DNA from: Pelagicoccus enzymogenes
GTDB lineage: Bacteria; Verrucomicrobiota; Verrucomicrobiia; Opitutales; Opitutaceae
Length of the DNA stretch: 64,000 nt
Assembly (NCBI RefSeq): GCF_014803405.1
Contig: NZ_JACYFG010000006.1
Location: forward strand, 379,501-443,500
Reading direction: 5' to 3'
Shown: positions 9,186-33,780 of the stretch, piece by piece
Layout of the letters: every line of letters starts with the position of its first letter
Numbering within the stretch: position 1 is the first letter of the stretch
Program-made: the position numbers and the translations under genes
The notes under the pieces: model-generated
What the model was told of the DNA's origin: nothing
What the model saw: only the letters and a program-made list of their open reading frames with translations
Database searches by the model: none

Positions 9186-9200
9186 GCAACCCATATGCCA
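9186..9200 (-). promoter_or_regulatory. Sigma-54 promoter of the flgF operon
   Basis: The minus strand reads TGGCAT, a 5-base spacer, then TTGC, with GG and GC exactly 10 bases apart, matching the -24/-12 consensus TGGCAC-N5-TTGC. The core continues TTAG, as in three other promoters of this locus. The predicted start of transcription is near 9174, about 3 bases before the flgF ATG. Confidence 0.88.
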
Positions 9201-9248
9201 ACATCACAAAACGCTACCGTACAACAACTTGCACAACTAACAAACGCT

Positions 9249-9277
9249 AGGGGAAATTTTTACCCCTCCCCATGGGG
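9249..9277 (-). terminator. Possible terminator hairpins after the mot unit
   Basis: Two short inverted repeats follow the stop of the small gene at 9293: CCCCATGGGG at 9268-9277, and AGGGG/CCCCT arms at 9249-9267 around an A/T-rich loop. There is no clean T tract after the second arm, so termination is only suggested. Their position between the mot unit and the flgF promoter supports the idea. Confidence 0.35.
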
Positions 9278-9292
9278 AAGTATCTGCAGCGA

Positions 9293-9547
9293 CTACTCGT
9301 CGTACTGGCAGTCGATCTCGGTCACTTGTCCGCAATTGCAGGTGACGACGATCTTGGTCACGCGACCGTCTTCGGTAACGTAAGCGACCTTGCTGCCGCC
9401 GTCTCCGCAAACCTCGTTTTCCTCGCGACTCTCCGGTTCCGGAGCTGCGAGCTGCCCGAAGCTCTGGGGAGCCGCGGGTAGTTTCATGGAGTCCTTGGAC
9501 TTTTTATTCCCTCCAAGTTGTTCTCTGCCTGAAAGATAGCTATCCAT
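9293..9547 (-). CDS. Small cysteine-containing protein of the mot operon, unknown
   Basis: I do not recognise a family. The 84 residues begin MDSYLSGREQLGGNKKSKDS; a polar, probably disordered half is followed by a compact C-terminal part with VCGDGGSKVAYVTEDGRVTK and TCNCGQVTEIDCQY. Four cysteines (one near residue 47, then C-x-C and a last Cys) could bind a metal, but this is a guess. The gene starts 2 bases after motB and is last in the motA-motB unit, so translation is likely coupled and a motor-related role is reasonable. No signal peptide or membrane segment is seen. Confidence 0.7.
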   Translation of the reverse strand: MDSYLSGREQLGGNKKSKDSMKLPAAPQSFGQLAAPEPESREENEVCGDGGSKVAYVTEDGRVTKIVVTCNCGQVTEIDCQYDE

Positions 9548-9549
9548 TT

Positions 9550-10329
9550 CTAGTCTGGAAACGACGGGGGAGCCCCCTGTGCCTCACGCTCGTCGAGAAT
9601 GTTGTAGAGCTCCGACAAGACAAGGCTTATCGAGACGCGATCGTTGGACTCCGCGGTTGGATGCATGAAGGGAAGCGGCTCTCGCGTTCCGTGAGCCGTA
9701 ACCGACTCGAACTGTCCGGCCCTGACTCCGTAGCGCTCCAACAAGCGACGCGTGGAATTGGCCCGATCGCTCGAGAGTTCCCAAGCGGTGTAGTCCCAGC
9801 CGTCACCCTCGAAGCCTTCGGAAACGTAGCCGTCTACTCTCACCATGAAGCTGTGCCGTTGCACCAGCCAAGCGAGCGTCTCAATCACGAAGGAGCCCCA
9901 AGGCGTGTAGTCGGCGGTATTTTCGACGAAGAATGGATGGGCGTCTCGGTCGTAGAGCGTCACTCGCAGGCCGTCGCTGGTGACATCCAAGTCGACCGGC
10001 TTCTGGTCCGGATTCGCGCTCTCGATGTTGAGCAGGCGCATGAACTCCTGGGCCATGTCGTAGAGTACCTTGAAGTCGGAAATCTCCGCCTTGCCCTTGG
10101 CCTGCCCTTCCCGATTGGAGACCTGGCCTTCGCTCTTGCTCTCGATCACGCCCATGGAGTTGTCCATGGGAGTATTGTAGGGATCCTGAAAATACTTGGC
10201 GAGGTCGCGCTTGAGGTTCTCGTCCTGGGAAGTCAGCCAGAGAACCATGAAAAGCGCCATCATCGCGGTCACGAAGTCCGCGTAGGCAACCTTCCAAGCG
10301 CCGCCGTGGTGTGTTCCCATCTGCTTCAT
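9550..10329 (-). CDS. motB: Flagellar motor stator protein MotB
   Basis: Stator subunit that couples ion flow to torque and anchors the stator to peptidoglycan. One N-terminal membrane helix (VAYADFVTAMMALFMVLWL, residues 14-32) carries the essential aspartate at residue 18. The C-terminal OmpA/MotB domain (about 125-255) shows FMVRVDGYVSEGFEGDGW and YTAWELSSDRANSTRRLLER, with NDRVSISLVL near the end. At 259 residues it has usual length. The sequence alone does not settle proton or sodium use. It follows motA by 11 bases. Confidence 0.95.
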   Translation of the reverse strand: MKQMGTHHGGAWKVAYADFVTAMMALFMVLWLTSQDENLKRDLAKYFQDPYNTPMDNSMGVIESKSEGQVSNREGQAKGKAEISDFKVLYDMAQEFMRLLNIESANPDQKPVDLDVTSDGLRVTLYDRDAHPFFVENTADYTPWGSFVIETLAWLVQRHSFMVRVDGYVSEGFEGDGWDYTAWELSSDRANSTRRLLERYGVRAGQFESVTAHGTREPLPFMHPTAESNDRVSISLVLSELYNILDEREAQGAPPSFPD

Positions 10330-10340
10330 AGCCTCAGCGT

Positions 10341-11201
10341 TTAGCCTCCGGTGGAGGACTTTAGGATGTTCTCCAGATCGTCAGCGCTGGGCACCATGCT
10401 GGCCTCGAGGCTGCGGCGGGCGAGCTCGACCGCCATGATGGGAGCAAGGCCGCGAGCAAAGGCGCCGATGGAGCGGGACATACAGATATAGTAGGTCTCC
10501 TCCGCCTCGTTGCCGAACTCGATCACGTTGCAAAGCGGATTGATGAAACCGTAGGCCACGAAGATACCGAGGAAGGTACCGGACAGGGCCGCGGAGATCT
10601 TGCCGCCGATCACCATTACGCCTTGGTCCAAGACGCTCATGGTCAAAATAATACCCATAACCGCCGCCACGATGCCGATACCGGGGAGCGAGTCTCCGAG
10701 GAGGTGCAGCACGTTGATGGGGCCGTGGGCTGCGTGCTTCTTGGCGTCGATCTCAGCCTTGAGCAGGGGCTCGAGCTGGTCGGGCTTGATCTTGCCGTCG
10801 ATGATAGGACGGAGAGCGGAGCAGAGGAACGTCACCTTTTCCTTGTCCGCGAGAAAGCTGGGATAGTTGGAGAAGATCGAGCTCGATTCGGGGGAGCTGA
10901 CGTGTTCGTCGAGGGCGAGCAGACCATTGCGACGGCCGAGCATGAAGAGCTCGTACATCACCTTCATGAGGTCGAGGTAATCATCCTTGTTGGGACCGGA
11001 CCCCTTCAAGGCGCCGATGATGGCCTTGATGGTGTGGACCAGTACGTCCTTGGGAGCGCAAATGGTCGCCACCCCGGCCGTGATGCCGAAGATCGCAAGG
11101 AATTCCGGCGGGTGCCAGAGCAACACGAGGCTACCTCCAGACCAGAGGAATGCTCCGACTGTCGCGCCTAGTACGATTAATGCTCCGATGATTACAAACA
11201 T
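10341..11201 (-). CDS. motA: Flagellar motor stator protein MotA
   Basis: Stator subunit with four membrane helices. The first two lie at residues about 1-48 (MFVIIGALIVLGATVGAFLW, then PPEFLAIFGITAGVATICAP). The last two lie near 175-225 (DSLPGIGIVAAVMGIILTM and ISAALSGTFLGIFVAYGFIN), with the conserved GxGIVAAVxG and GTFLG motifs. The cytoplasmic loop between helices 2 and 3 carries the rotor-facing charged residues. It is first in the motA-motB-small protein unit behind a sigma-28 promoter. Confidence 0.96.
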   Translation of the reverse strand: MFVIIGALIVLGATVGAFLWSGGSLVLLWHPPEFLAIFGITAGVATICAPKDVLVHTIKAIIGALKGSGPNKDDYLDLMKVMYELFMLGRRNGLLALDEHVSSPESSSIFSNYPSFLADKEKVTFLCSALRPIIDGKIKPDQLEPLLKAEIDAKKHAAHGPINVLHLLGDSLPGIGIVAAVMGIILTMSVLDQGVMVIGGKISAALSGTFLGIFVAYGFINPLCNVIEFGNEAEETYYICMSRSIGAFARGLAPIMAVELARRSLEASMVPSADDLENILKSSTGG

Positions 11202-11216
11202 GACTTGTGGACTCTC

Positions 11217-11243
11217 CTATCGGTTGCCCGGCGGAGAACTTTA
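11217..11243 (-). promoter_or_regulatory. Sigma-28 (FliA) promoter of motA
   Basis: The minus strand reads TAAAGTTC (11236-11243), exactly 11 bases, then ACCGATAG (11217-11224), against the FliA consensus TAAAGTTT-N11-GCCGATAA. The -10 box overlaps the motA ribosome site GGAGAG, so the leader would be about 10 bases. It makes the motor genes late class. Confidence 0.85.
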
Positions 11244-11261
11244 CTCACGCAGTGAACAAAA

Positions 11262-12071
11262 CTACTTATGCATCACAGTCGTGATGTAGCTTCTCAAACT
11301 GATGATCGCCTGGGAGTGGATCTGGCAGATGCGAGACTCCGTCAGCCCGAAGACTTCCGCGATTTCCGCGAGGCGCATGTCCTGGAAATAGTACATGGCT
11401 AGCACCTTGCGCGGCGTTTCGGGGAGCTGGTTGATCCGCTCCGCAACGAGACGCGTGACTTCGTCCTTTTCCATCTTGGAGGTGACGGGCACGACATTGT
11501 CGTCGGGGATCACTTCGTAGAGGTCCGCTCCCTCGCCGTCGTCGCCGCCGGCGGCCGCGTTGTCGAGAGGCAAAAAGCTGACCGGGCGGGTTTCCGCCAT
11601 CAACTGGTCGTATTCCTTGCGGCTGATGCCGAGCTCGGCACGGATTTCCTCTTCCGTCGCGGGACGTCCGAGGCGCTGCTCCACTTCTTCGATCGTGGCG
11701 CGCAGCTTCTTGAAATTGGTTCTGGCGTTGCGAGGCATCCAGTCCATGCGACGGAGCTCGTCGAGGATGGAACCGCGAATACGCATCGCCGCATAGGAGC
11801 CGAAGGACTTCTTCTGGGCGGGGTCGTACTTCTTGAGGGCCGCGATCAAGCCCGTGATGCCCACGCTGTGCAGGTCTTGCTCGTCGATGTGGGGTGGCAG
11901 GTTGATCTTGATACGAGCTACGATGGAGCGCACCAGCGGCATGTACGTCTCGAATAGCTCGGCATTCTGGACAGGAGGTTTCGAGGAATCCCCCACGCCA
12001 TAGGCCTTTGCCGCCTGCGCCTTCCTCCCCTTTGAACTGTCTTTCCTCTCCTTCACGTTAATGTCATTCAT
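11262..12071 (-). CDS. fliA: Flagellar sigma factor FliA (sigma-28)
   Basis: RNA polymerase sigma factor for late flagellar genes. Region 2 appears as MPLVRSIVARIKINLPPHID, EQDLHSVGITGLIAALKKYD and FGSYAAMRIRGSILDELRRM. Region 3 follows (WMPRNARTNFKKLRATIEEV), and region 4 is LPETPRKVLAMYYFQDMRLA with EIAEVFGLTESRICQIHSQA. At 269 residues it has an extra basic N-terminal stretch of about 35 residues. It is the last gene of the export-gate operon, so sigma-54 would drive its synthesis. I see no FlgM anti-sigma gene in the window. Confidence 0.96.
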   Translation of the reverse strand: MNDINVKERKDSSKGRKAQAAKAYGVGDSSKPPVQNAELFETYMPLVRSIVARIKINLPPHIDEQDLHSVGITGLIAALKKYDPAQKKSFGSYAAMRIRGSILDELRRMDWMPRNARTNFKKLRATIEEVEQRLGRPATEEEIRAELGISRKEYDQLMAETRPVSFLPLDNAAAGGDDGEGADLYEVIPDDNVVPVTSKMEKDEVTRLVAERINQLPETPRKVLAMYYFQDMRLAEIAEVFGLTESRICQIHSQAIISLRSYITTVMHK

Positions 12072-12085
12072 AGTTGGTTGAGTAG

Positions 12086-12358
12086 TTATACGGGTTTTGA
12101 ACCGCGCTCTTTAGCGTCTCGCTGTTTTCTTTCATCAGCCTCCGCCATCGCAGCGACGGCGGCTTGACGCTTCTCCATGAGCATTTGCCGGACATTCTTT
12201 ATCCAAATTTGACCGACCCACAGGAACAGCAGGCCGCACAGGAAGCTGCCGACGCTTGCTTGGCCGAGGGCGCTGAGCGGGTCCTTCCCCACTCCGAGGG
12301 CGACGAGGAAGATCGAAACGAAGCCGAGCATTCCTCCCATAAGCATAGTGTACATCAT
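12086..12358 (-). CDS. Small two-helix membrane protein between flhF and fliA, unknown
   Basis: Family not recognised. The 90 residues hold two membrane segments: MMYTMLMGGMLGFVSIFLVA at the start and SVGSFLCGLLFLWVGQIWI in the middle. A charged helical tail (VRQMLMEKRQAAVAAMAEAD, then ERKQRDAKERGSKPV) probably faces the cytoplasm. Its ATG overlaps the last codons of flhF and it ends 14 bases before fliA, so it is co-transcribed. The position is the one normally held by flhG, which is missing; the protein has no resemblance to that MinD-like ATPase. A role at the flagellar base is possible but unproven. Confidence 0.7.
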   Translation of the reverse strand: MMYTMLMGGMLGFVSIFLVALGVGKDPLSALGQASVGSFLCGLLFLWVGQIWIKNVRQMLMEKRQAAVAAMAEADERKQRDAKERGSKPV

Positions 12359-13695
12359 GAGCTATACCTCTCCTCTCCAGATTGCGTGGCGCCTACTGGC
12401 TTGCCCCGCTTGGCGGCGGCGGCGAGTTGGCGGCCGTTCGGGAAGGAACGTTCCAACAAGTAGCTGTAGGTTTCCATGGTGTATTCCCCAGCCGGATTCG
12501 GGCCTTCGCTGAAAAAGAGCGGCTCCATCCGACGATTTAACAAAAACTTCCAAAGCTTCCCCGCCCGGCGGGTCTCCTCCAAGTGGGTAAAAATTACTTT
12601 CGTGGCTCCGATCGACTCGCCGGTGGCCAGCATGTCGGCGATCAGCTCCGCCTCGTAGGCCGCGTTGACCACCACGATGCGCTCGTCGATGCCCAAGGAG
12701 TCCAAGGTCTCGCGGCAGGCCTGCACGGACTTCCCGTCCGACAAGGAATAGCCGGGCATGTCCACCAGCAAGGGACGGCTCTGGTCCGTCTCGCCCACCT
12801 CCTCCGCAGAGCGGGCCAGTCCGACTCCCATGATTTCGCAAAAGACCTCCAAGCTGTCGCTCGGATTTGGCAGCTCCGAATCGACCTTCAATACGGTAGG
12901 GGCCAAGCCGTTTACGAACACGTCCGCCGAGAGCATCTTGCAGAGGGCGGAAGTCTTGCCCACTCCGCTACAGCCGATGAATGCCCGGCGGGGGCCGAGT
13001 TCAGGCTTGGACGTATGGGGAAAACGACTACGCAACCAATCGCAAATCTTGGCGTAGAGATCCATGGTCGGCAACGAGCCGATGTCGCGGAAATCCACTT
13101 CCGAACGGATGCGCTCGATGAGAGAGCGGTCGAAGCCTACGGACTCGAGCATGGAGATGGCCCGCTGCACCGCTTCCAACGTTCCTCGCTTGACCGGGTT
13201 CGCGGCGGAACCGAGGGGCGCTTCCTGTTCTTCCGAATCGACGGCAGGGACCTTCGTCTTGGCAGGAGCGTCGTCCTCGAACTGGGAAAAGTAGCTCCCC
13301 GCGTCGTCATCCTCGGAATTGCTTTTTGAATACAGATCCCCGATAGGAGTCTTGTTCAGAGGGGCTTGCTTCTGTTCGCTGGCGGAGGCCGCGGCCTTGG
13401 GAGACGGCGTATCCTCTTTTTGAATATTCGGCTTGGGGGTCGCCGCAGCCGCTTGCGCGGGAGGGTTCGCCGCAGGCGCCTTGGCCTTCGATTGCGGCCC
13501 CGGGCCCAGAATCTCCACGATCACTTCCAAACGCGGCTTGCTCACCAAACGCTTGAGCCCCCCCGCTTCCACTTGCTTGACGGAGAGGACGCGAGCTTGC
13601 TCGCCATACTTTTCGCGTATGACGTTTACCGCCTCGCTCGCGGTGTTCACGAGAAGCTTGATCTGGGTGCCTGCAGGGGTGGAGTCTTGGCTCAT
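12355..13695 (-). CDS. flhF: FlhF-like SRP-family GTPase with altered nucleotide motifs
   Basis: FlhF places and counts polar flagella. The N-terminal signature is GTQIKLLVNTASEAVNVIRE; a long Ala/Pro/Lys linker (about 65-170) follows, then the N domain and the G domain. The P-loop GCSGVGKT is at about residues 241-248 and is intact. The switch segment normally reading DTAG is DMPG (near 313), and the guanine-specificity motif TKxD reads THLE (near 370). GTP binding or hydrolysis may therefore be altered. It is encoded directly after flhA, the usual order. Length 446 is normal. Confidence 0.88.
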   Translation of the reverse strand: MSQDSTPAGTQIKLLVNTASEAVNVIREKYGEQARVLSVKQVEAGGLKRLVSKPRLEVIVEILGPGPQSKAKAPAANPPAQAAAATPKPNIQKEDTPSPKAAASASEQKQAPLNKTPIGDLYSKSNSEDDDAGSYFSQFEDDAPAKTKVPAVDSEEQEAPLGSAANPVKRGTLEAVQRAISMLESVGFDRSLIERIRSEVDFRDIGSLPTMDLYAKICDWLRSRFPHTSKPELGPRRAFIGCSGVGKTSALCKMLSADVFVNGLAPTVLKVDSELPNPSDSLEVFCEIMGVGLARSAEEVGETDQSRPLLVDMPGYSLSDGKSVQACRETLDSLGIDERIVVVNAAYEAELIADMLATGESIGATKVIFTHLEETRRAGKLWKFLLNRRMEPLFFSEGPNPAGEYTMETYSYLLERSFPNGRQLAAAAKRGKPVGATQSGEERYSS

Positions 13696-13725
13696 GGAAA
13701 TAGGTTACCTAACTATGGGCGTTTA

Positions 13726-15963
13726 TCAATTAGGCTGGAAGCTCGCAGCCATCGGGCCGTTGGCAGCTGCTTCGGTGGCGCCGTTCGCCTGAGCCCTCGC
13801 CTGCATGTCCTGCTGAGCAAAATCCGGGAACAGTATGATGGCGTGGTTCATAATCTCGGTGCTCGACGGAAGCTCCTGGTAACTCAGGATGTTGAGCTTG
13901 GGCAGCGAAGGTTCGAAGAATCTCTTGAAGGGCAAGCGTATTTCAGCCGCCGTTACCAGAATAGGTAGCAGACCGTTTTCGATCTGGTCATTAGCCTTTA
14001 TGGCCAGCTCTCGCAGTAGGTACTGCGCGAGCTTGGGATCTAGGGAAAGCGTGTAGTCGGTATTTGTGCGTTGCACCTTAGAGGCCAGTACCTGCTCGAG
14101 GCGCGGATCCATGGTGATCGCCTTCAATACGCCCTTCTCCGACTCATACTCGGCCACGAAGAATTCTCCAGTGCGACGGCGAACGTACTCGGACAGATCG
14201 TCTGGATTCTTGGAAATGGGAGCGAAATCCCCTATTCCTTCGAGGATCAAAGTTAGGTTCCGAATGGCCACGCCTTCCTTGAGTAGATTTTGGAAAACGC
14301 GATGTATCGTTCCGATGGATACGAGATCCGGCATAAGCTCCTGTACGAGCGCCGGATGAGTCTCCTCGACATGGTCCACCAACTTTTGGGTATCCTGACG
14401 GCTGAGCAAATGGTGGGCGTTGTTCTTGAGGCATTCGGAAAGATGCGTGATGAGCACGGATGCCGCATCCACTACGGAGAAGCCGTTGATCTCGGCGCTC
14501 TTCTTTTCGTCCTCGTCGACCCAAACCGCCTCGATGCCGAACACCGGTTCCTTGGTCGGAATGCCTGCCAACTCCACGTCGCTGCCGGTCACGTTCATAG
14601 CCATCCAGCGGTTTGGCATCACCTCGCCTCGAGCCACTTCCTTGTCGTGCAAGAGGAAACGGTACTCCTGCCCTTCCAGCTCCATGTTGTCGCGCACTGC
14701 GATCGGCGGCACCACGATGCCAAGCTCGCGAGCCAAGGTTTTGCGAACTCCCGTCACGCGCTCCAAAAGGTCGCCGCCTTGGGCCTTGTCGGCGAGGGAG
14801 AGAAGATTAAATCCAATTTCTAGGGCAAACACATCTACTTCGATTAACTTTTCAAACTCGGCTGGCAGGTGCTTGGAAGCGTTGGGATCCACCGCTTCCC
14901 CACCCTGGCCACCGCCGCCTTGGCGAGCCTGAGCCTTTTCTTCGACTTCCTTCCGCTTCTCCTCTTCCTTCTTCTTGCCTTGGACGCGGTTCAGGGCTAC
15001 TGCCCCAGCTCCGACACCCGCCGCCATGATGAAGAAAGGAATAAACGGCATTCCCGGTATGATTCCGAACAGTCCCAACATGCCTGCTAGCACGCCGAGG
15101 GCCTTCGGATAAGCGGCCACCTGACCGCCGATTTGCGAACCAAGGTCTTCGTCTTCACCCGAGTTGCGAGTGACCAAAAGACCGGCCGCGAGAGAGATGA
15201 CTAGAGCTGGAATCTGCGAAACCAATCCGTCACCAATCGAGAGAAGCGTGAAGCGTTGCAGCGCTTCCTGAAAGCTCATGTCCTGCTGCCACATGCCGAT
15301 GGCGATACCGCCCAGCACGTTGATAGCTGTGATCAGAATACCTGCGGTCGCGTCACCGCGAACGAACTTGCTGGCACCGTCCATGGAACCGTAGAAGTCC
15401 GCCTCCTTCTGCACCTTCTCGCGGCGCTTGGTGGCCTTGACCTCGTCGATGATGCCCGCGTTGAGCTCCGCGTCGATCGCCATCTGCTTACCTGGCATCG
15501 CGTCCAAGGTGAAGCGGGCCGCAACTTCCGCGATACGCCCCGCGCCCTTGGTGATAACGATGAAGTTGATCGCGACCAGGATGAGGAAGATAACCGTTCC
15601 CACGAGATAGTTGTTTCTCACTACAAAGGAACCGAAAGAGTCGATCACGCTACCGGCATAGCCATCGAGGAGAATCAAGCGAGTCGAGGCCACGTTCAGC
15701 CCCAATCGGAACAAAGTTACGCCCAGCAGCACCGTGGGGAAGCCCGAGAACTCGGAAGGTTCCTTCACGTAGACGATGATGAGCAAGATCAGCAAGGACG
15801 CTCCCACGCTGGCCGCCAGCAAGACGTCCAGCATCATGGGCGGAAGCGGCAATACCAGCAAGAGGACCGTGCCGAACAAACAGGCCACCAGAGCGGTGTC
15901 GCCACGCTTGAGGAAGTCGAGGAGCTTTGCGGGAGAAAAGGACTGTGCTGCGGAATCGCTCAT
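13726..15963 (-). CDS. flhA: Flagellar export gate protein FlhA
   Basis: Large membrane component of the type III export gate. The N-terminal half has about eight membrane helices, with the FHIPEP-family core VYVKEPSEFSGFPTVLLGVT and LFRLGLNVASTRLILLDG near residues 65-105. It continues with TKGAGRIAEVAARFTLDAMPG and KQMAIDAELNAGIIDEVKAT. The C-terminal cytoplasmic domain (about 370-700) docks chaperone-substrate complexes. At 745 residues it is slightly long through a Lys/Glu/Gly linker near 335-365. It shares one base with flhB. Confidence 0.98.
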   Translation of the reverse strand: MSDSAAQSFSPAKLLDFLKRGDTALVACLFGTVLLLVLPLPPMMLDVLLAASVGASLLILLIIVYVKEPSEFSGFPTVLLGVTLFRLGLNVASTRLILLDGYAGSVIDSFGSFVVRNNYLVGTVIFLILVAINFIVITKGAGRIAEVAARFTLDAMPGKQMAIDAELNAGIIDEVKATKRREKVQKEADFYGSMDGASKFVRGDATAGILITAINVLGGIAIGMWQQDMSFQEALQRFTLLSIGDGLVSQIPALVISLAAGLLVTRNSGEDEDLGSQIGGQVAAYPKALGVLAGMLGLFGIIPGMPFIPFFIMAAGVGAGAVALNRVQGKKKEEEKRKEVEEKAQARQGGGGQGGEAVDPNASKHLPAEFEKLIEVDVFALEIGFNLLSLADKAQGGDLLERVTGVRKTLARELGIVVPPIAVRDNMELEGQEYRFLLHDKEVARGEVMPNRWMAMNVTGSDVELAGIPTKEPVFGIEAVWVDEDEKKSAEINGFSVVDAASVLITHLSECLKNNAHHLLSRQDTQKLVDHVEETHPALVQELMPDLVSIGTIHRVFQNLLKEGVAIRNLTLILEGIGDFAPISKNPDDLSEYVRRRTGEFFVAEYESEKGVLKAITMDPRLEQVLASKVQRTNTDYTLSLDPKLAQYLLRELAIKANDQIENGLLPILVTAAEIRLPFKRFFEPSLPKLNILSYQELPSSTEIMNHAIILFPDFAQQDMQARAQANGATEAAANGPMAASFQPN

Positions 15964-17072
15964 TATTTGGTCTTCTTGAGGGCGGCGCGACGGGCCTTGA
16001 GCTTGTGGAAGTAGTAGCGGTGCGTCTTGTAGACGAAGGCGAGAATTTCAGCCACCGACTGAAACATCTCCATCGGGATCGGAGAGCCGACCTGGGAAAC
16101 CTTGTAGAGCATGCGGGCGACCATCTTGTTTTCCACCACGGGTACGCCATGCTCGGCCGCAACGGCCTTGATGCGCTGGGCAAAGGCGTTTTCGCCCTTG
16201 GCCAAAACCATCGGAGCGGAATCGATGCCTCGCTCGTACTTCAAAGCGACCGCATAGTGTGTCGGATTTGTCACTACGACATCCGCCGTGGCCACGTCGT
16301 CGAGCATCTGCCCCTGCATCAGGCGCATCGCCATCTGCATGCGAGCCTTGCGCACCTCCGGGCTCATGTCCTGGTCCTTGCGCTCCTGCTTGACCTCTTC
16401 CTTGGTCATCTTGAGCCCGTCCATCGTCTTCTTGTGCTGCCAGAGGTAGGATATGATGGCGATGATGCCGACTGCCACCGTCAAGCGAATGAAGACGTAG
16501 ACCAAGGTATCAGTGATGAAGAGGCCGACGTGCTTGATGTCGATTTCAGCGTAGAAGATCGGGTCCTTGATGATCTTGCGCATCGCTACCCACAGGATCA
16601 GTCCCATGGCCGCCATCTTCAACAGGTCGATCCCGAAGCGTACCAGCACGTCCTTGGACATGATGTTCTTGGCGCCGTTGATGGGGTTGAGCTTGTTGAA
16701 CTTGATGCCCAAGGCCTTGGGAGTCAGGCGGAACTTGGTTTGCAAGCCTCCTGCTATGATACCAGCCACCATGGCGGTGACCAGGAAGGGAGCCGACATC
16801 TTGCCCAGCATTACGATGATCTCGTTGAAAAAGTAGCTGATGTTGTCGACCGAGAGATCAACAGAGGAAAGGTTTCCGAACAAGGTGGACGAGACATCGA
16901 ACACTTGAGTGACCAAGGAACGCCCCATGAACATCACCACCAACAAGCCCGCTAACAAGGTGAAGGTAACGCCCACCTCCTGAGCTTGCGGCATGTTACC
17001 CTCGCTGCGCGCTTCGTTCAGCTTCTTGTCTGTGGGCTTCTCTGTCTTTGAATCCTTATCCGTATCAGCCAT
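15963..17072 (-). CDS. flhB: Flagellar export switch protein FlhB
   Basis: Export gate component that switches substrate class from rod/hook to filament. Four membrane helices occupy roughly residues 30-215. The autocleavage motif NPTH lies near residue 269 in VVVTNPTHYAVALKYERG. The N terminus DKDSKTEKPTDKKLNEARSE is typical. At 369 residues it has normal length. The C-terminal tail ends in a basic cluster (KLKARRAALKKTK). It lies between fliR (4 bases away) and flhA. Confidence 0.97.
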   Translation of the reverse strand: MADTDKDSKTEKPTDKKLNEARSEGNMPQAQEVGVTFTLLAGLLVVMFMGRSLVTQVFDVSSTLFGNLSSVDLSVDNISYFFNEIIVMLGKMSAPFLVTAMVAGIIAGGLQTKFRLTPKALGIKFNKLNPINGAKNIMSKDVLVRFGIDLLKMAAMGLILWVAMRKIIKDPIFYAEIDIKHVGLFITDTLVYVFIRLTVAVGIIAIISYLWQHKKTMDGLKMTKEEVKQERKDQDMSPEVRKARMQMAMRLMQGQMLDDVATADVVVTNPTHYAVALKYERGIDSAPMVLAKGENAFAQRIKAVAAEHGVPVVENKMVARMLYKVSQVGSPIPMEMFQSVAEILAFVYKTHRYYFHKLKARRAALKKTK

Positions 17073-26924: not shown

Positions 26925-26926
26925 AA

Positions 26927-27547
26927 TTAATTTTGGGCTAAGTTGTCCTTTGTATTGTCCGAAAAGAGTCGGAGCATATCGGAAATCTTGGCCGCCCGGC
27001 GCACCTGTTCCGCTATACCGCCATTCGCAGTCGCCATCTCTTGGAGAACAGCGCCCACAGTGTCGGATTTCATGAAAAACAGGATCTTCACGACTGTGGA
27101 GTCGTCGAGGTCCCGGAAAATGTTAACCGTCGCATCGGGAGTGAGCGTGGCATAGACCTTGGCCAGGCGCTTGAGGTTCTCCACTTCGTCGGACTCGAGC
27201 TTAACAACGCCTTCCAAGAGATGCTCTCGCATCCGCTCGACCTGGGTTTTGATTTCCTCAATCTCTGCACGATCCGCTCCGAGACGGGCTTCATAAGCGT
27301 TCAACTCTTCCTCACGCGCATCCAACATCATGATACGTTCGTGCAGCTCGCGTTCGAGCTGGGTGATGTACTCCGACGCGAATCCCCACTCGAAGGGTTT
27401 CGGCTCCTCGCGCTTAATCACCACAGCCGACGCTTCCGGCTCGGGAAAAAGTTCCGACCAATACATCTTCAAAGCGACAAACTGCGTCCCGACCATGAGG
27501 ACGAGAGCGATCAATGCGATGACCAGGGGTTTAGATAGCATTTGCAT
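26927..27547 (-). CDS. MotE/FliG-like coiled-coil membrane protein
   Basis: The 206 residues comprise one N-terminal membrane helix (ALIALVLMVGTQFVALKMYW), a coiled coil (about 60-125, including ITQLERELHERIMMLDAREE), and a C-terminal MgtE_N/FliG-like domain with VYATLTPDATVNIFRDLDDS and VVKILFFMKSDTVGAVLQEM. The architecture matches MotE-type proteins, which chaperone MotC/PflA-like stator parts or sit near fliJ in other phyla. Here it lies between fliJ and fliK with gaps of 2-5 bases. The helix-coil-domain layout suggests a periplasmic C-terminal domain. Function at the motor is inferred. Confidence 0.75.
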   Translation of the reverse strand: MQMLSKPLVIALIALVLMVGTQFVALKMYWSELFPEPEASAVVIKREEPKPFEWGFASEYITQLERELHERIMMLDAREEELNAYEARLGADRAEIEEIKTQVERMREHLLEGVVKLESDEVENLKRLAKVYATLTPDATVNIFRDLDDSTVVKILFFMKSDTVGAVLQEMATANGGIAEQVRRAAKISDMLRLFSDNTKDNLAQN

Positions 27548-27552
27548 AACGA

Positions 27553-27993
27553 CTAGCGAGCGCTCCTCCGCGCGTTGTAGATGTCTTCAATTTCGTTCGC
27601 TTCCTGCTTCAGCGCTTCAGCGGTGTACTCTTGAAAGCGTTTTTCCTTGAGGTTCGTGACGACCTTGCGATTGCGGGACGCTTCCTGCAGGGCTTGCATC
27701 GCCTTGGCTCGGCGTTCTTGAGCCTTTTTCATAAGCTCGCGGGCTTCTTCCGTCTGGCGTTTCAGTTCCGCCACCTGATTGGCCAAGCCCATCCGATCCA
27801 TGGGAGAAAAGCGTCGTCCGCTCTCGCCATCCCACGATGCGTAGGTGCCTGACACGGAATCCTCCAACTGGGCGATGTGCTGGTTGATGCGCTCGACTTG
27901 GGCATTCACCTCGGACAAGGCCATGCGAGCGTTCTGCTCGTCGCGCTCCCGCAGGACCAGCAAGGGATCTAGAATAAAAGTAAACTTCTTCAT
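27553..27993 (-). CDS. fliJ: Flagellar export protein FliJ
   Basis: Coiled-coil stalk of the export ATPase, comparable to the gamma subunit of ATP synthase. The 146 residues are almost entirely helical: KFTFILDPLLVLRERDEQNA at the start and a C-terminal coil with QEASRNRKVVTNLKEKRFQE. The N-terminal pattern F-x-L-x-P-L-L-x-L-R-E-x-x-E is typical. It overlaps the end of fliI by 4 bases. Confidence 0.9.
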   Translation of the reverse strand: MKKFTFILDPLLVLRERDEQNARMALSEVNAQVERINQHIAQLEDSVSGTYASWDGESGRRFSPMDRMGLANQVAELKRQTEEARELMKKAQERRAKAMQALQEASRNRKVVTNLKEKRFQEYTAEALKQEANEIEDIYNARRSAR

Positions 27994-29312
27994 CGGATCA
28001 GAGCAGCAAGTTTCTGGTAGCTTTCATTCCGAGGAACGCTCTCGGTGTAGCCTTGTTTCAGATAGTTCATCACGCGCTCGTTGGCGATGATAGCAGCGTC
28101 GATCCGCTGGTTCGCTCCACGCACGTAAGCGCCCAGATTGACGATGTCCTCATTCTTTCGATACAAGGCAAGGTAGTCGCGAGCGAGACCCGCCGTCGCG
28201 AGCTCCTCCTCGCTGGAAATGTCATTACGCAAGCGGCTTATGCTCTCCAGCACGTCAATCGCTGGAAAATGGTTAGCCGTAGCCAGCTGACGAGAAAGCA
28301 CGATGTGCCCGTCGAGAATACCGCGAACCGCGTCCGCGATGGGCTCGTTCAAGTCGTCCCCTTCTACCAGCACGGTATAGAACGCGGTGATGGACCCCTT
28401 GTCCGAATTGCCCGTACGCTCCAACAAGCGCGGCAGCGTCGAAAACACCGACGGGGTATAACCGCGGCTGGCAGGCGGTTCGCCCACAGCCAAGCCCACC
28501 TCGCGCTGAGCCATGGCGTAACGCGTGACGGAATCCATCAGGAATAGGACTTTTTTGCCGGCATCCCGGAAATTCTCGGCAATGCTGGTCGCCATGTTGG
28601 CGGCTCGCAAACGCATCGGAGCCGACTGGTCGGAAGTAGCCACCACCACCACCGTACGAGCCATGCCCTCAGGACCGAGGTCCTTCTCGATGAACTCGCG
28701 CAACTCGCGACCACGCTCACCGACCAGAGCGATTACGTTGACGTCTGCCTTGGAACCGCGGGCAAGCATGCCGAGCAAAGTCGATTTACCCACACCCGAT
28801 CCGGCAAAAACTCCCATACGCTGCCCTTCCCCCACCGGAGAAAAGAGATCGATGGCCTTCACGCCGGTATTGAAGGGCTCCGAAATACGTTGACGCAAAA
28901 GCGGGTTCGGCACCTTGCCGGTCGACGCGCTCGGCTTCTGGTAGTGCATGGGGCCGATCCCATCGATGGGTCGACCGAGGCCATCGACCACGCGACCGAG
29001 TACCTCGTTGCCCGCAGGCACCTTGTTGAAACCGCTGCTCAACTTCACGTCGCAGCCGGGATGCACGCCCGCTACGTCGCCAAGCGGCATGAGCAAAATC
29101 CGTTGTTCGCGGAAGCCAACAACTTCCGCGTAAACCTTCACCGCAGTGCCTGGGGACGTGATCTCGCAAACCTCGCCCAAGCTCGCTTGAGGCCCTTCTG
29201 ACTCCACAATCAAACCGGTTACTTGGGCAACCTTACCCAAGTGGCTAAGCGTATCCAAGGCGCCAACACGCGCTCCGATATCGGAAGCCCAATCTGGAAG
29301 CAAACGGTTCAT
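27990..29312 (-). CDS. fliI: Flagellar export ATPase FliI
   Basis: Hexameric ATPase that prepares substrates for export. It has the F1-beta-like fold with the P-loop FAGSGVGKSTLLGMLARGSK near residues 168-188. The VNVIALVGERGRELREFIEK motif follows, then the Walker B region KKVLFLMDSVTRYAMAQREV with GLAVGEPPASRGYTPSVFST. At 440 residues it has standard length. It overlaps fliH and fliJ by 4 bases each. Confidence 0.98.
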   Translation of the reverse strand: MNRLLPDWASDIGARVGALDTLSHLGKVAQVTGLIVESEGPQASLGEVCEITSPGTAVKVYAEVVGFREQRILLMPLGDVAGVHPGCDVKLSSGFNKVPAGNEVLGRVVDGLGRPIDGIGPMHYQKPSASTGKVPNPLLRQRISEPFNTGVKAIDLFSPVGEGQRMGVFAGSGVGKSTLLGMLARGSKADVNVIALVGERGRELREFIEKDLGPEGMARTVVVVATSDQSAPMRLRAANMATSIAENFRDAGKKVLFLMDSVTRYAMAQREVGLAVGEPPASRGYTPSVFSTLPRLLERTGNSDKGSITAFYTVLVEGDDLNEPIADAVRGILDGHIVLSRQLATANHFPAIDVLESISRLRNDISSEEELATAGLARDYLALYRKNEDIVNLGAYVRGANQRIDAAIIANERVMNYLKQGYTESVPRNESYQKLAALIR

Positions 29313-29905
29313 GAGGGACGCAAGCTCTCCCCTAGCTTGTGAAGCTTGTTCGCGATCGTTCCGTCGATCTTGCCAAAACGGCTGGAAAGGATGCAGTCGC
29401 CGCGACGCAACATGTCGTCGGCCACGAACTCAAGGCCCGGATGCTTCGCTTTCAAATTCGAATCGAGCTCGGTCAGCAAAGCGATATCGGCGGAATGCAG
29501 GCGCACTTCCATGCGCTCGTCCTCCAGCCCTGCTTCCTTCACCACGCCTTCGACAACGGCTTCGATCGCCTCTGCAGGCATTTCGAAACCGCCGAGCGTT
29601 TGCTTAACGCACTCGTAGGTCAGCGTCATGAGCGCTTCGCGAGCTTCGCCTACGATCGTGGTAAACTTGTTTTCCAACTCCGAGAAAGTCCCTTCTCGCA
29701 AAGCGTTGATCTCGGAACGAAAATCGAGGATCTGTTGGTTGTACTGGGAGCTCGCGTCTTCGTATCCAGTCTTGTAGGACGCGTCCACTTCTTGCTTGTG
29801 GGCAAGACTGTCCACGCGCGGTTGACCGTCGTAAGCGACTGCCAACGACACCAGCTTGTCCTCCAGAACGAGGCGGTGCTTCTTAGACTGTTTGGCCGCC
29901 ACCAT
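29309..29905 (-). CDS. fliH: Flagellar export regulator FliH
   Basis: Binds FliI and links it to the C ring, comparable to the peripheral stalk of ATP synthase. The 198 residues show an N-terminal charged part, a helical middle (EINALREGTFSELENKFTTI) and a C-terminal domain ECVKQTLGGFEMPAEAIEAV with EVRLHSADIALLTELDSNLK. The last part (LRRGDCILSSRFGKIDGTIA) corresponds to the conserved G-x-C-x-V-x-T-x-x-G-x-I-D segment. It overlaps the end of fliG by 23 bases. Confidence 0.9.
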   Translation of the reverse strand: MVAAKQSKKHRLVLEDKLVSLAVAYDGQPRVDSLAHKQEVDASYKTGYEDASSQYNQQILDFRSEINALREGTFSELENKFTTIVGEAREALMTLTYECVKQTLGGFEMPAEAIEAVVEGVVKEAGLEDERMEVRLHSADIALLTELDSNLKAKHPGLEFVADDMLRRGDCILSSRFGKIDGTIANKLHKLGESLRPS

Positions 29906-30890
29906 CGAGTGAGATCTCCTCTTGTTCTTCCAGTCTGCGTACCACTTGGATAACGCGTTCCTGGGCTGCTTCCACTTCGGTCAGCTTGACCGGCCCCATC
30001 ATTTCGAGCTCTTCCTTCAACGTTTCCGCCGCCCGCTTGGATACCGCGTCCATGACGGCCTCCTTGAGCGAATCGGTCGCCGACTTGAGGGCGATAATGA
30101 GGTCGCCCGAATCCACCTCGCGCATGATGCGCTGCAGATCTGGGAGCTCGAGACGGGAAAGGTCTTCGAAGCTGAACATCTTCTTGCGAATCTCCGCCCC
30201 GAGGGCTGGGTTGCGCTCTTCGATGTTGGTGAGGATCGACTTGCTGTCCTCCTTTTCCAGAGTGTTGAGCAAGTCTGCCACCATGCGAATGCCGCCGCTC
30301 TTGTTGAGCGTGGTCTTCTGCTTCGTATCCAAATTCTTAGAGAGCGCATTAGCGACCTTGTTGATCAGCTCCAGCGAAGTCGGCTCCATGATACCGAGGC
30401 GTTCGATAACTTCCTCGCGCACCTCGTGGTTGAACATGCCGAGGATCGGGCCAGCCTTGTCGCGCTCGAGATATGAGAGCACGAAAGCGATGGTCTGAGC
30501 CTGTTCGGTCTTGATCATGTTGAAGATCTGACGCGGCTCCATCTGCTCGATTTCCTTGATGACCTCGGCAGAGTTGCTCGTCGGCGCGATGCGTTCCAAG
30601 ATGCTGGTCGCCTTGAAGTCGCCCTTGGCGATCTCCAATGCGCGACGGGTGTAGAGCGGACCGCCTAACAAGGATCCGTAGCTGGAAAGGATGAAACTGG
30701 AGAACTCTTCCACCGCAGCTTTCTGCAGGTCGGTCTCGATGGCGGAGATGTTGGTCATCTCCTTACAGATGATCTCGATGGATTCGTCGTCGAATTCCTT
30801 GAGAACGTGGGCCGCGGCTTCAGGACCGATCACCACCAAGAAGGTGGCGAGGCGCTGCACGCGAGAAAGGCTTTTGTAATCGGCAGGCAT
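29883..30890 (-). CDS. fliG: Flagellar motor switch protein FliG
   Basis: Rotor protein that contacts the stator. The N-terminal domain begins SLSRVQRLATFLVVIGPEAA with HVLKEFDDESIEIICKEMTN. The middle domain has QMEPRQIFNMIKTEQAQTIA and the EHPQ-like helix region. The C-terminal torque domain carries EIRKKMFSFEDLSRLELPDL with QRIMREVDSGDLIIALKSAT, containing the charged residues that meet MotA. At 335 residues it matches the family. Confidence 0.97.
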   Translation of the reverse strand: MPADYKSLSRVQRLATFLVVIGPEAAAHVLKEFDDESIEIICKEMTNISAIETDLQKAAVEEFSSFILSSYGSLLGGPLYTRRALEIAKGDFKATSILERIAPTSNSAEVIKEIEQMEPRQIFNMIKTEQAQTIAFVLSYLERDKAGPILGMFNHEVREEVIERLGIMEPTSLELINKVANALSKNLDTKQKTTLNKSGGIRMVADLLNTLEKEDSKSILTNIEERNPALGAEIRKKMFSFEDLSRLELPDLQRIMREVDSGDLIIALKSATDSLKEAVMDAVSKRAAETLKEELEMMGPVKLTEVEAAQERVIQVVRRLEEQEEISLDGGGQTV

Positions 30891-30895
30891 AGGAA

Positions 30896-32476
30896 CTACT
30901 TCTTATTGACTTCCTCTCCAATCCATTCGCGCAGCGAGACGCCTATGTTGGCGGGCTTTTGGCGAATGAGTTCGTTAAGCATTTCGGGAGTGACCTGGCT
31001 GGTGTCTTCCATCTTGCGGGTCTCTAGCATCTGCTCTGGCTGGAGCACCTCGATGGAGATCTTCTCAGGCTTGTAGCGCTTGAGCATCTGCATGAAGAAG
31101 ATGATCACGCCGAGGCCGAGCACCGCGCCGACCGCGTTTTTTCCGATCTCGATGTAGCGCTGGAAGTTCGCCTCCTCCTTGAGCAGGTCGCCATGGTCTT
31201 CAAAAGGATCCGCCGCAAAGGCCATTTCCTTAACGGTCACGAAGTCGGCCGCTTGCTGGCCCGGGGCGAGTTGGATGCCGAGGGCAGTCAAAACGATGTC
31301 CTCCAGCTCCTGCAGCTCTTCGGTCGTGCGGTTGGCGAGTTCCATGTTCCCGCCTACGTTCTTCATTTGCTTGGCCACTACCAGCGATGCGGTGAGGCGC
31401 TTGATCGCCCCTGGATTCTGCACGCTGCTAACCACCCGCTCGTTGATCTCGAAATTTTCCGTGCGGGTCTTGTTCTTGTCCTCACGCTCCTTGATGGTGG
31501 AGAAAGAACCGCCCGCTGCCGACCCCGCGCCAGGAGTATTGGCCGAGATTCCAGCGGCCGTGGAAGAGGCATCGCCAGTGGTCTCGCGCTCGATCTGCGA
31601 GTCGTCGTCGGTAATAGTGGAGCGCGCCACTTGGCTTTCTGGATCGTAGATCTTTTCGGTGGTCTGAACCGACGAGGTGTCGATATCCACTGCTACGCGA
31701 ACTTCTGATTGATTGGGGCCGAGAACGCGGTCGAGCATGGACTGTACCTTGTTGGTGAAGTAGCTTTCCATCGACTTGCGGTACTTCATGACGTCGCTGG
31801 TCATTCCGCCGCCCAGTCCGTCGCTGCGTAGTTCCTCGCTCAATACAGTTCCCATGCTGTCAACGACTACCACGTCGTTGACGTTGAGACGCTGGATGGC
31901 GTTGGCCACCAAGTGGCGGATGGAATTGACGGTGCTGGAAGTCAGTCCGCCGCCGTCGACAAAGACCGATGCGGTGGGGCGGTCTTGGCCTTCGCTGCGA
32001 GAGAGCAGACGATTTTCGGGCATGACCACCATGACGCGAGCGGACTCGATCCCGTCAAACTGCGAGATGGTGCGGGAGAGTTCGCCCTGAACCGCACGCA
32101 AGAAATTCGTGCGTTGCACGAAATCGCTGATGCCGAAGCTGCCTTCGTCGAAGAGCTCGAAGCCTGGGCCGCTGCCACCCGCTGGGATGCCTTCCGTAGC
32201 GAGCTCCATGCGCAGGCGATGCACCTGAGAAGCTTCCACGTAGATGGAGTTTCCGCCAGAACCGGTCTCGAACTTGATTCCCTTCTGCTCCAGCTTGGCC
32301 ACGATCTTACCCGCTTCTTCTGGAGAAAGCTTTCCGTAGAGCAGCTGCAGATCCGGCTGAGCCGCCCAGATCATCATGCCAATCATGGCGAGGAGAACGA
32401 GGCCGGAAGCGAGGATGAGCGAGATGCGTTGGTTTGCTCCCAACGACTGCCAGATTTCTTTAAATTGATTAGCCAT
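30896..32476 (-). CDS. fliF: Flagellar MS-ring protein FliF
   Basis: Forms the MS ring in the inner membrane. Two membrane helices flank the large periplasmic part: the first at residues about 18-40 (ISLILASGLVLLAMIGMMIW), the second near 443-465 (VGAVLGLGVIIFFMQML). The ring-building motifs include LLYGKLSPEEAGKIVAKLEQ and QGELSRTISQFDGIESARVM. The cytoplasmic C terminus (DTSQVTPEMLNELIRQKPAN) binds FliG, encoded 5 bases downstream. Length 526 is normal. Confidence 0.97.
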   Translation of the reverse strand: MANQFKEIWQSLGANQRISLILASGLVLLAMIGMMIWAAQPDLQLLYGKLSPEEAGKIVAKLEQKGIKFETGSGGNSIYVEASQVHRLRMELATEGIPAGGSGPGFELFDEGSFGISDFVQRTNFLRAVQGELSRTISQFDGIESARVMVVMPENRLLSRSEGQDRPTASVFVDGGGLTSSTVNSIRHLVANAIQRLNVNDVVVVDSMGTVLSEELRSDGLGGGMTSDVMKYRKSMESYFTNKVQSMLDRVLGPNQSEVRVAVDIDTSSVQTTEKIYDPESQVARSTITDDDSQIERETTGDASSTAAGISANTPGAGSAAGGSFSTIKEREDKNKTRTENFEINERVVSSVQNPGAIKRLTASLVVAKQMKNVGGNMELANRTTEELQELEDIVLTALGIQLAPGQQAADFVTVKEMAFAADPFEDHGDLLKEEANFQRYIEIGKNAVGAVLGLGVIIFFMQMLKRYKPEKISIEVLQPEQMLETRKMEDTSQVTPEMLNELIRQKPANIGVSLREWIGEEVNKK

Positions 32477-32508
32477 AGTAGTTATTTCCTATCGTATCAG
32501 TGGCTTAA

Positions 32509-32856
32509 CTACACTGGCATCTTCATCAGTTCCTGATAGGACTGAACGAGCTTGTTGCGAATTTCGACCATCATGTTGAAGGCGACTCCTGCCTCCTGGC
32601 TGGCGATCATCGCCTGGTGAACGTTGTCTGCCTCCCCGAGCAAAACCTTGTTGGACTCGGCAGCGGCGACCTTGTGCTTGGCGTCGACTTCATGGATGAA
32701 CTTGCCGATCACTCCGTCGAAGGCCTTGGCTTCGGAAGCTCTATTGAGCGAGTCGGTCGGGTTCTGGAACTCGACGCTTTGAAGCTTCTTTTGGTGCTCG
32801 AGCTGGTTGGTCTTGAAGAGCTGCTGCGCTGCGAGATTGGATACAGAGTCTATCAT
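32509..32856 (-). CDS. fliE: Hook-basal body protein FliE
   Basis: Joins the MS ring to the rod. The 115 residues show SFxxxL-like helices, with VAAAESNKVLLGEADNVHQA and MIASQEAGVAFNMMVEIRNK, then LVQSYQELMKMPV, the conserved FliE C terminus. It lies between flgC and fliF. Confidence 0.94.
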   Translation of the reverse strand: MIDSVSNLAAQQLFKTNQLEHQKKLQSVEFQNPTDSLNRASEAKAFDGVIGKFIHEVDAKHKVAAAESNKVLLGEADNVHQAMIASQEAGVAFNMMVEIRNKLVQSYQELMKMPV

Positions 32857-32910
32857 GGGGAAGTGGCGCTAACGGTGTAGGAAAGTGGTATTCAAGAGTT
32901 GGGCCGGCGA

Positions 32911-33342
32911 TTAGTGCTTACCGATCTTCAAGGCTTGCTGAGCCATTTGCTTGGAGGTGCGGACGACTTGCAGGTTCGCTTCGTAAGAGCGGGAGGCGGA
33001 AATGAGGTCCACCATCTCATGGGTGAGGTTGACGTTGGGCAGTCGAACCATGCCCTTCTCGTCAGCATCGGGATGCCCTGGGTTGAAGACCAGCGGCCCC
33101 GCTGTCTCGTCCGTCACGATGTTGCGAACGTTCACGCCTTGGGCGGTTTGCATCTGGCCGTTCTGGTCGCGGCCAAGCTCGAGGAGCTTCGCCTCGAACT
33201 GGACGGTCTGGCGCTGGTAAGGCTTGCCGTCCGGACCCCGCGTGGTGTGGGCGTTGGCGATGTTCTGCCCGATGATGTCCATGCGGAGCTTCTCTGCCTG
33301 CAGTGCAGAGGAGGTGGAGTCGATGCCTGGCATTAAGTTCAT
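32911..33342 (-). CDS. flgC: Proximal rod protein FlgC
   Basis: Proximal rod subunit. The N terminus MNLMPGIDSTSSALQAEKLR with MDIIGQNIANAHTTRGPDGK and the C terminus PNVNLTHEMVDLISASRSYE with ANLQVVRTSKQMAQQALKIG are canonical. At 143 residues it has normal length. It follows flgB by 30 bases. Confidence 0.97.
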   Translation of the reverse strand: MNLMPGIDSTSSALQAEKLRMDIIGQNIANAHTTRGPDGKPYQRQTVQFEAKLLELGRDQNGQMQTAQGVNVRNIVTDETAGPLVFNPGHPDADEKGMVRLPNVNLTHEMVDLISASRSYEANLQVVRTSKQMAQQALKIGKH

Positions 33343-33372
33343 AGCGGGTGTCTATCTAATAGAGGTGATCCT

Positions 33373-33753
33373 TTAAACGCGGCCGGAAATGGCAGTCTTC
33401 AGGCGGTTGAGCGAAGTAGAGGTGTAGTTCGCCAAAAATTCGTACTGGATCGCGTTCTTCTGCATCGCGAGCATCTCCTGGTCGATCTGGACGTTGTTCC
33501 CGTCCGCTCGTTGGTTGGGAGATTCGAGATCGCGTACGGTCCGGAATTCGAGGTTGCGGATCTCGTTGACGTCGTTGGTGGCAGCAGCGCGCTTCAGCTG
33601 GGCGTCGAAGCTCGTCTCGATGTCCATGCGCTTGTAGCCAGGGGTCTCCACATTCGCCAAGTTCGAGGCGATCGCGTTCTGCTTGGCGTGGGACACGTCC
33701 AACAGCTTTTTGGCCAAGACGTAATTTTCGCGCTGCATGAGATCATCTATCAT
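33373..33753 (-). CDS. flgB: Proximal rod protein FlgB
   Basis: Innermost rod subunit. The protein begins MIDDLMQRENYVLAKKLLDV and carries the axial motif KQNAIASNLANVETPGYKRM; the C terminus includes NVQIDQEMLAMQKNAIQYEF. The ATG at 33753 is preferred over a GTG at 33762 because it gives the family's N-terminal spacing and the GTG lies upstream of the predicted transcription start. 126 residues. It heads the longest flagellar operon and appears to have essentially no leader. Confidence 0.94.
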   Translation of the reverse strand: MIDDLMQRENYVLAKKLLDVSHAKQNAIASNLANVETPGYKRMDIETSFDAQLKRAAATNDVNEIRNLEFRTVRDLESPNQRADGNNVQIDQEMLAMQKNAIQYEFLANYTSTSLNRLKTAISGRV

Positions 33754-33765
33754 GCCTCGCACTAA

Positions 33766-33780
33766 GCAAAGCCTATGCCC
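33766..33780 (-). promoter_or_regulatory. Sigma-54 promoter of the flgB operon
   Basis: The minus strand reads GGGCAT, 5 bases, then TTGC followed by TTAG. GG and GC are 10 bases apart; only the first T of TGGCA(C/T) differs. The predicted transcription start is at about 33754, next to the flgB ATG at 33753. Confidence 0.82.

Follow-up and report, generated by a model that had tools for sequence, protein, structure and literature searches.

How are flagellar genes switched on in Pelagicoccus enzymogenes, a member of the Verrucomicrobiota? To our knowledge, most of what is understood in detail about flagellar regulation comes from Proteobacteria and Bacillus. The question is raised by a 64,000-nt stretch of the P. 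enzymogenes genome (hereafter the window), in which four flagellar operons, headed by flgB, flgD, fliO, and flgF, each begin directly behind a minus-strand sequence that an earlier note had read as a sigma-54 promoter followed by a shared TTAG. From sequence comparisons, we consider it very probable that these four sites are genuine sigma-54 promoters, that they define one basal-body regulon, and that this regulon is driven by a dedicated activator acting through upstream palindromes.

The sites were placed by motif scans of both the window and the 6.23-Mb genome. All four carry TGGCAY-N5-TTGC with the GG and GC doublets 10 bases apart, the flgB copy being the variant GGGCAT that had been pointed out before. 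The extended motif GGCAY-N5-TTGCTTAG is found exactly, on the minus strand, at four positions of the window (table 1); the intervals given previously (9186–9200, 19440–19454, 24253–24267, and 33766–33780) are these same sites, extended by the T or G in front and stopping short of TTAG. Family searches identified the genes directly downstream as flgF, fliO, flgD, and flgB, as proposed. When the scan was extended to the whole genome, as the earlier note had advised, the exact motif gave four matches, all at the four flagellar operons, where about 0.30 were expected from the base composition of the window (Poisson P(≥4) = 2.6e-4, computed before counting that all four fall at operon starts). With at most one mismatch, the genome contains 13 matches versus 9 for a reversed-pattern control. 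The motif is not enriched in the window with up to three mismatches (28 versus 23.3 expected; 28 or more in 20 of 100 shuffles), nor is the short core KGGCAY-N5-TTGC genome-wide (43 versus 44 in the control). Thirty of these 43 core sites were checked with a mechanical open reading frame (ORF) caller on either strand: 27 lie inside an ORF and three outside (flgD, flgB, and locus L050), the flgF and fliO sites being scored as inside merely through over-long starts set by the caller. Among the 26 non-flagellar core sites checked, 25 lie within mechanically called ORFs and no start lies in range downstream of L050; an ORF start is found within 250 nt downstream of three (L031, L045, and L046). 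Across 177 Opitutales genomes, GGCAYN5YTGCTWAG matches in 48, with five matches in the source genome and at most two in any other, and its reversed control also matches in many of them. Because matches per genome are few and the control matches too, this pattern is informative at operon starts only. The window also holds two sites with two mismatches to the extended motif; one of them, GGCATGCGAATTGCTTTA (42221–42238, minus strand), lies about 150 nt upstream of the gene for a PhoH/PIN protein.

We compared up to 350 nt upstream of orthologous first genes. FlhA relatives place the window with Pelagicoccus in the Opitutales (loci L061, L063, and L070 are named Pelagicoccus and L062 is Verrucomicrobiae DG1235), the next-nearest being metagenome-assembled genomes (MAGs) of Opitutales and Opitutaceae (L064–L069 and L071). 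In this near group of Pelagicoccus and Opitutaceae MAGs, the site is present at 35 of 42 testable orthologous positions, the window's own four counted; flgD of L063, cut by the locus end, was left out, and L183, L185, and L186 duplicate other loci. The GG and GC doublets, which both weigh in the choice of sites, are found in all 35, and the N5 spacer varies. With sites placed by core score alone, the GC doublet is followed by T in 34/35, T or A in 33/35, A in 27/35, and G in 34/35, frequencies in which the extension is somewhat favored because the rows had been chosen after a score that included it. The flgD promoter was detected in all four Pelagicoccus-group loci (the window among them) whose sequence extends that far, and in none of the five MAG loci. 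Among distant Opitutales (L132 and L072 being one genome, G040 = G187), 15 of 17 rows score above the core threshold, and in 12 of these the distance is short (11 flgF and one flgB); G occupies position +4 in 8 of the 15 sites. According to these alignments, the predicted core recurs across Opitutales at flgF, and TTAG belongs to the nearer clade.

As yardsticks we used two non-flagellar sigma-54 targets of the same genome, pspA beside its activator gene pspF, and rsr beside the gene of the activator RtcR. PspF, PspA, and RtcR score over their family cut-offs; Rsr, a Ro60-like RNA-binding protein, matches under its cut-off (E 1.6e-26). Their best sites have a strong −24 element (TTGGCACG, CTGGCACG) and GTGA or GTGT at the −12 place. 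With relatives included, none of the ten psp and neither of the two rsr sites shows G four bases beyond the −12 doublet, at least two of these 12 sites (L230 and L231) being possibly misplaced. Since 34 of 35 flagellar sites carry this G and 0 of 12 psp and rsr sites do, the extension marks the flagellar class on the evidence of these two yardsticks. The idea that TTAG is lineage-specific thus holds for the flagellar promoters of Pelagicoccus and related Opitutaceae MAGs but not for sigma-54 promoters generally. In the lineage, psp and rsr sites (L162:6235–6250; L163, before rsr) have TGGCACG as −24, and the −12 GC is often GT or GA; in several genomes TAATA follows the −12 doublet. If TTGCTTAG were part of another protein's binding site, or a chance likeness, its absence from psp and rsr sites of the same genomes would be expected, as would a published consensus, TGGCACN5-7TTGCT, without TAG (excerpts of PMC12316311). 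We judge this highly improbable, given GG-N10-GC in all 35 near sites around a variable spacer, the constant distance to the flgB and flgF starts, and the palindromes upstream (see below).

The genome encodes rpoN, with a single match (E 1.7e-59). The gene is present in 159 of 177 Opitutales genomes and, because it is nearly universal there, its correlation with flagella is useless. The enhancer-binding AAA+ domain PF00158 gave 16 hits in the genome, about 13 of them strong. One candidate activator (G000:C50:152937–154553; L155:5438–7051) combines a PF00072 receiver, PF00158, and a PF02954 Fis domain and has a GAYTGA loop at residue 234. A G[AS][FY]TGA loop is present in 29 of 30 activator loci, and CheX is encoded within 1.5 kb in 17 of the 30. 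The candidate is encoded in a second flagellar cluster (G000:C50:138203–156588; L188 and L189) together with two flagellins, fliD, fliS, CheX, a double receiver protein, and PseI and other Pse-type (pseudaminic acid) genes; its matched neighbors are a Polysacc_synt_2 protein, CheX, and the double receiver protein. A 95-aa protein between fliD and fliS (L188:19246), where FlgM might stand, has no family match.

We profiled the candidate in 49 chosen genomes or loci: 11 named loci, 19 genomes drawn from the 39 that exceed the FlhA cut-off, and 19 drawn from the 99 that have no FlhA match. Another 39 weaker FlhA matches, possibly from type III secretion systems, were left out, and up to 29 candidates were scored per genome. 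The best match scores at least 458 bits in all 30 FlhA-positive entries (29 distinct genomes) and at most 344 bits in the 19 FlhA-negative genomes, giving an orthologue in none of the latter. A copy is located on the flhA contig, about 18–57 kb from flhA, in G013, G066, G135, G040 (second copy), G167, G054, and G072. The protein likely works like FlrC, which is not to say that it is an FlrC. The FlrC/FleQ-type activator that the earlier note had advised looking for has a counterpart, an FlrC/FleR/FlgR-like protein linked to the flagellum and encoded outside the window, with no adjacent gene recognized as a kinase gene. With rpoN present, −24/−12 elements recurring at orthologous positions, and a flagellum-linked activator gene, the predicted sigma-54 nature of the sites is well supported in silico. 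Another sigma-54 activator (L157, G000:C3) is encoded beside a heme-nitric oxide (NO)-binding (H-NOX) protein, an HDOD protein, and a receiver-kinase; this neighborhood suggests NO-controlled sigma-54 transcription.

Where might the activator bind? Alignments of Pelagicoccus upstream regions reveal conserved islands outside the promoter, and their common element is a 13-bp palindrome like GGCARATNYTGCC (table 1). Palindromes with at least six of eight half-site bases were counted in 42 chosen rows (flgB 11, flgD 4, fliO 8, and flgF 19). We left out flgB of L182, flgD and fliO rows without a promoter, and flgF of L132, L072, L135, L140, L144, L146, L167, L168, and L170. The rows within each set are related, so that the counts are not independent, and a fairer test comes from the MAG and distant rows. 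Relative to the C of the −12 doublet, the palindrome is centered at −105 in all four flgD loci, with all eight half-site bases in each, and at −107 or −108 in 9 of 11 flgB and 7 of 8 fliO loci. At flgF, it is found at −72 in 13 and at −96 or −97 in 11 of 19 loci. The background over all offsets averages 1.9–2.0 of the eight bases. An exact integration host factor (IHF) consensus between palindrome and promoter was observed at flgB (3/11), flgD (2/4), fliO (1/8), and flgF (1/19); the case for an IHF site there is suggestive only. Exact IHF-like matches at about −46 to −59 from C(−12) occur at flgB of L172, L173, and L181, flgD of L062 and L070, and fliO of L071.

The different placement at flgF would also fit sigma-54 promoters served by another or by several enhancer-binding proteins, for example, one for the export gate and MS ring and one for the rod and hook, with the profiled protein controlling part of the regulon. 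The genome has 16 PF00158 hits, one of which was profiled, and separate control of early and rod/hook classes is described for Vibrio, Pseudomonas, and Campylobacter in the excerpted text of PMC7064773. We regard this arrangement as unlikely, since all four promoters have one core, one extension, and a similar palindrome, and the sole activator profiled is strongly linked to the flagellum.

Several observations nevertheless weigh against a single regulon under one activator acting through palindromes. Seven of the 42 near positions are without a site (flgD of L064, L065, L068, L069, and L071; fliO of L064 and L069), and 5 of 16 distant loci (15 genomes) have none at short distance from flgF. 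The Pelagicoccus rows are no test of the palindrome because the consensus was read off their alignments. In the window itself, the copies are weak at fliO (shuffle p ~0.07) and flgF (~0.055), and the palindrome alone, with up to one mismatch, is not enriched in the source genome (156 versus 185 in the control). Upstream of flgF in L144, L146, L167, and L168, the promoter is present and the best palindrome is at −127, −254, −129, and −227, respectively; flgB of L182 has no palindrome at the usual place, the best one being at −99 (p 0.34). As for the activator, profiling against flagella covered 1 of the 16 PF00158 hits, and its association with FlhA (Fisher P 9e-14) ignores shared ancestry and equates "flagellated" with FlhA found. 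No histidine kinase was recognized among its neighbors, a distant kinase not having been sought.

The distance between promoter and start codon is strikingly constant at two of the operons. From the C of the −12 GC to the A of the flgB ATG there are 13 nt in all 12 loci, the L182 site being weak. The corresponding distance for flgF is 15–16 nt in the 12 near loci and 13–17 nt in 11 of 16 distant loci (15 genomes), with FlgF down to 29% identity. In the Pelagicoccus group, it is 33–34 nt for fliO and 63–66 nt for flgD. By the usual convention, this C is position −12, which places the predicted transcription start 1–5 nt before the ATG of flgB and flgF. The predicted +1 in the window would lie 1 nt before the flgB and 3 nt before the flgF ATG, and both mRNAs are predicted to be near-leaderless. 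In L065, L068, and L071, the site before fliO also has an ATG at 13 nt; it precedes the alignment-inferred fliO start by 79–187 nt and therefore may belong to an upstream ORF.

This geometry might be apparent only, slipped sigma-54 starts or a second promoter providing flgB and flgF with ordinary leaders. The near-leaderless starts are predicted from spacing, and the missing Shine-Dalgarno (SD) sequence at flgB and flgF is weak evidence because several window genes have no clear SD match whatever their leader. Translation without SD therefore seems usual here; some Verrucomicrobia are counted as SD-scarce in the available part of PMC10783764. Ordinary leaders seem improbable to us, as the 13–17 nt are kept where the proteins are 29–60% identical and both spacer and upstream DNA have changed.

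Returning to the four promoters as one activator-driven regulon, we propose the following scheme. Sigma-54 RNA polymerase would sit at TTGGCAY-N5-TTGC, and the phosphorylated response-regulator activator (REC, AAA+, Fis-type helix-turn-helix) would bind the GGCARATNYTGCC-like palindrome ~105–108 nt upstream or, at flgF, the pair at about −96 and −72. The activator would then contact the polymerase and open all four promoters by ATP hydrolysis. Transcription of the flgB and flgF operons would begin 1–5 nt ahead of the start codon and yield near-leaderless mRNAs, and the Pelagicoccus leaders would measure ~21 nt for fliO and ~51 nt for flgD. FliA, produced from the fliO operon, would subsequently serve the late genes. 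The likeness of the promoters across early and rod/hook operons suggests, without proving it, a single step. More tentatively, we raise the possibility of a one-step switch in flagellated Opitutales, in which a single activator would control the export gate, MS ring, C ring, rod, and hook. TTGCTWAG would then be flagellum-specific in Pelagicoccus and its near relatives, and the rod operons would be leaderless across the order, promoter and translation start forming one combined element.

The gene content of the four operons agrees with the expectation that these promoters would cover nearly the whole basal body: the operons hold the genes for rod, hook, MS ring, C ring, and export gate as well as flhF, fliA, and motAB (table 1). 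The flgB operon reads flgB-flgC-fliE-fliF-fliG-fliH-fliI-fliJ-orf26927-fliK, and gene order in the cluster is largely common across Opitutales. The names of fliH, the FlbB-like protein, and fliK come from matches under curated cut-offs, with gene order as additional support for fliH and fliK; fliO, fliR, flhB, flhF, and motA match under NCBIfam cut-offs, and their names lean also on gene order. The inferred starts of flgF (9171), fliO (19407), and flgB (33753) differ from those of the longest ORFs. Between fliJ and fliK, 26927–27547 encodes a weak match to FlbB, a flagellar collar protein of the periplasmic type (E 2.8e-10, short of the curated cut-off). A 90-aa protein (orf12086) between flhF and fliA, in the region 12086–13695, has no NCBIfam or Pfam match. 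No FlhG (MinD-like) gene is seen at the usual place, the only place where it was sought. A FliA-type promoter look-alike, TAAA-N15-ACCGATAG, read by eye, directly precedes motA within the fliO operon (~11202–11250, minus strand), and a similar TAAA-N15-ACCGATA sequence was found by scan before fliD (L188:16637). The ORF just upstream of flgB (33879–35222), which had been guessed to encode an activator, encodes a sulfatase. Near the flagellar cluster, a 1311-aa protein (43531–47463, minus strand) and two proteins of 493 and 564 aa (36622–39816) have no Pfam match.

Table 1. Predicted regulatory sites and flagellar genes of the window (offsets are from the C of the −12 doublet to the palindrome center).
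Feature	Position	Strand	Sequence or basis
Predicted sigma-54 promoter, flgB operon	33762..33779	−	GGCATAGGCTTTGCTTAG; 33780 is the first G of GGGCAT
Predicted activator site, flgB	33867..33879	−	GGCAAATTCTTCC; −107; shuffle p ~0.015
Predicted sigma-54 promoter, flgD operon	24249..24266	−	GGCATCGCCGTTGCTTAG
Predicted activator site, flgD	24352..24364	−	GGCAGTTCTTGCC; −105
Predicted sigma-54 promoter, fliO operon	19436..19453	−	GGCACCTGCGTTGCTTAG
Predicted activator site, fliO	19541..19553	−	GGAAAAAACTGCC; −107; coordinates computed from promoter position
Predicted sigma-54 promoter, flgF operon	9182..9199	−	GGCATATGGGTTGCTTAG
Predicted activator site 1, flgF	9276..9288	−	TGCAGATACTTCC; −96
Predicted activator site 2, flgF	9252..9264	−	GGTAAAAATTTCC; −72; three mismatches to consensus
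flgB, first gene of operon	33373..33753	−	TIGR01396
flgC, fliE, fliF, fliG, fliH, fliI, fliJ, FlbB-like protein, fliK	24480..33342	−	Family searches
flgD, flgE, fliL, fliM, fliN	19876..24190	−	Family searches
fliO, fliP, fliQ, fliR, flhB, flhA, flhF, orf12086, fliA, motA, motB, orf9293	9293..19407	−	Family searches
flgF, flgG, flgA, flgH, flgI, orf4564, flgN, flgK, flgL, fliW	1122..9171	−	Family searches

These data outline a whole predicted circuit (sigma factor, activator, sites, promoters, and starts) for a phylum on whose flagellar regulation our paper searches listed little, and its steps are testable in cultured strains of Pelagicoccus, for instance P. mobilis KCTC 13126 (L070). Specialists may take an interest in two features: the sharing of one promoter class by parts that are made in two steps in other bacteria, and a sigma-54 promoter whose position would make the transcript leaderless. 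Across Opitutales, the activator gene might in addition be used as a genomic marker for flagella.

That motility is under sigma-54 control in Opitutia was an earlier prediction: computed sigma-54 regulons of 33 classes include motility in this class of Verrucomicrobiota (Carrera-Reyna et al. 2025; PMC12316311). New here are the flagellum-specific extension, the candidate activator with its possible sites, and the near-leaderless geometry; the excerpts of that study offer, for this group, neither an operon map nor an extended −12 element, and they name no activator, upstream sites, or start geometry. The main text of PMC3162934 mentions neither Verrucomicrobia nor Opitutus. In the titles and abstract openings of the open-licence literature, we found no sigma-54 flagellar activators in the phylum apart from PMC12316311, and nothing on leaderless sigma-54 flagellar mRNAs. 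Leaderless mRNAs starting at or a few nucleotides from the ATG are known from Leptospira and Caulobacter, bacteria that also have RpoN; the portions of these reports available to us describe no RpoN flagellar promoter set with a conserved distance to the ATG (PMC5243855, PMC4287350).

As is predicted for Pelagicoccus, Vibrio cholerae (FlrA/FlrBC), Pseudomonas aeruginosa (FleQ/FleSR), and Campylobacter jejuni (FlgSR) place the basal body under sigma-54 control and have a flagellum-linked response-regulator activator, with FliA as the likely later sigma factor (excerpts of PMC7064773). Unlike in those three systems, the export gate, MS ring, C ring, rod, and hook operons of Pelagicoccus share one predicted promoter type, with so far no sign of separate early and middle activators among the PF00158 hits, one of which was profiled. 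The candidate activator gene of Pelagicoccus, moreover, adjoins those of CheX and a double receiver protein rather than that of a recognized kinase, and flgB and flgF have a predicted near-leaderless geometry that sets them apart from their counterparts in Vibrio, Pseudomonas, and Campylobacter.

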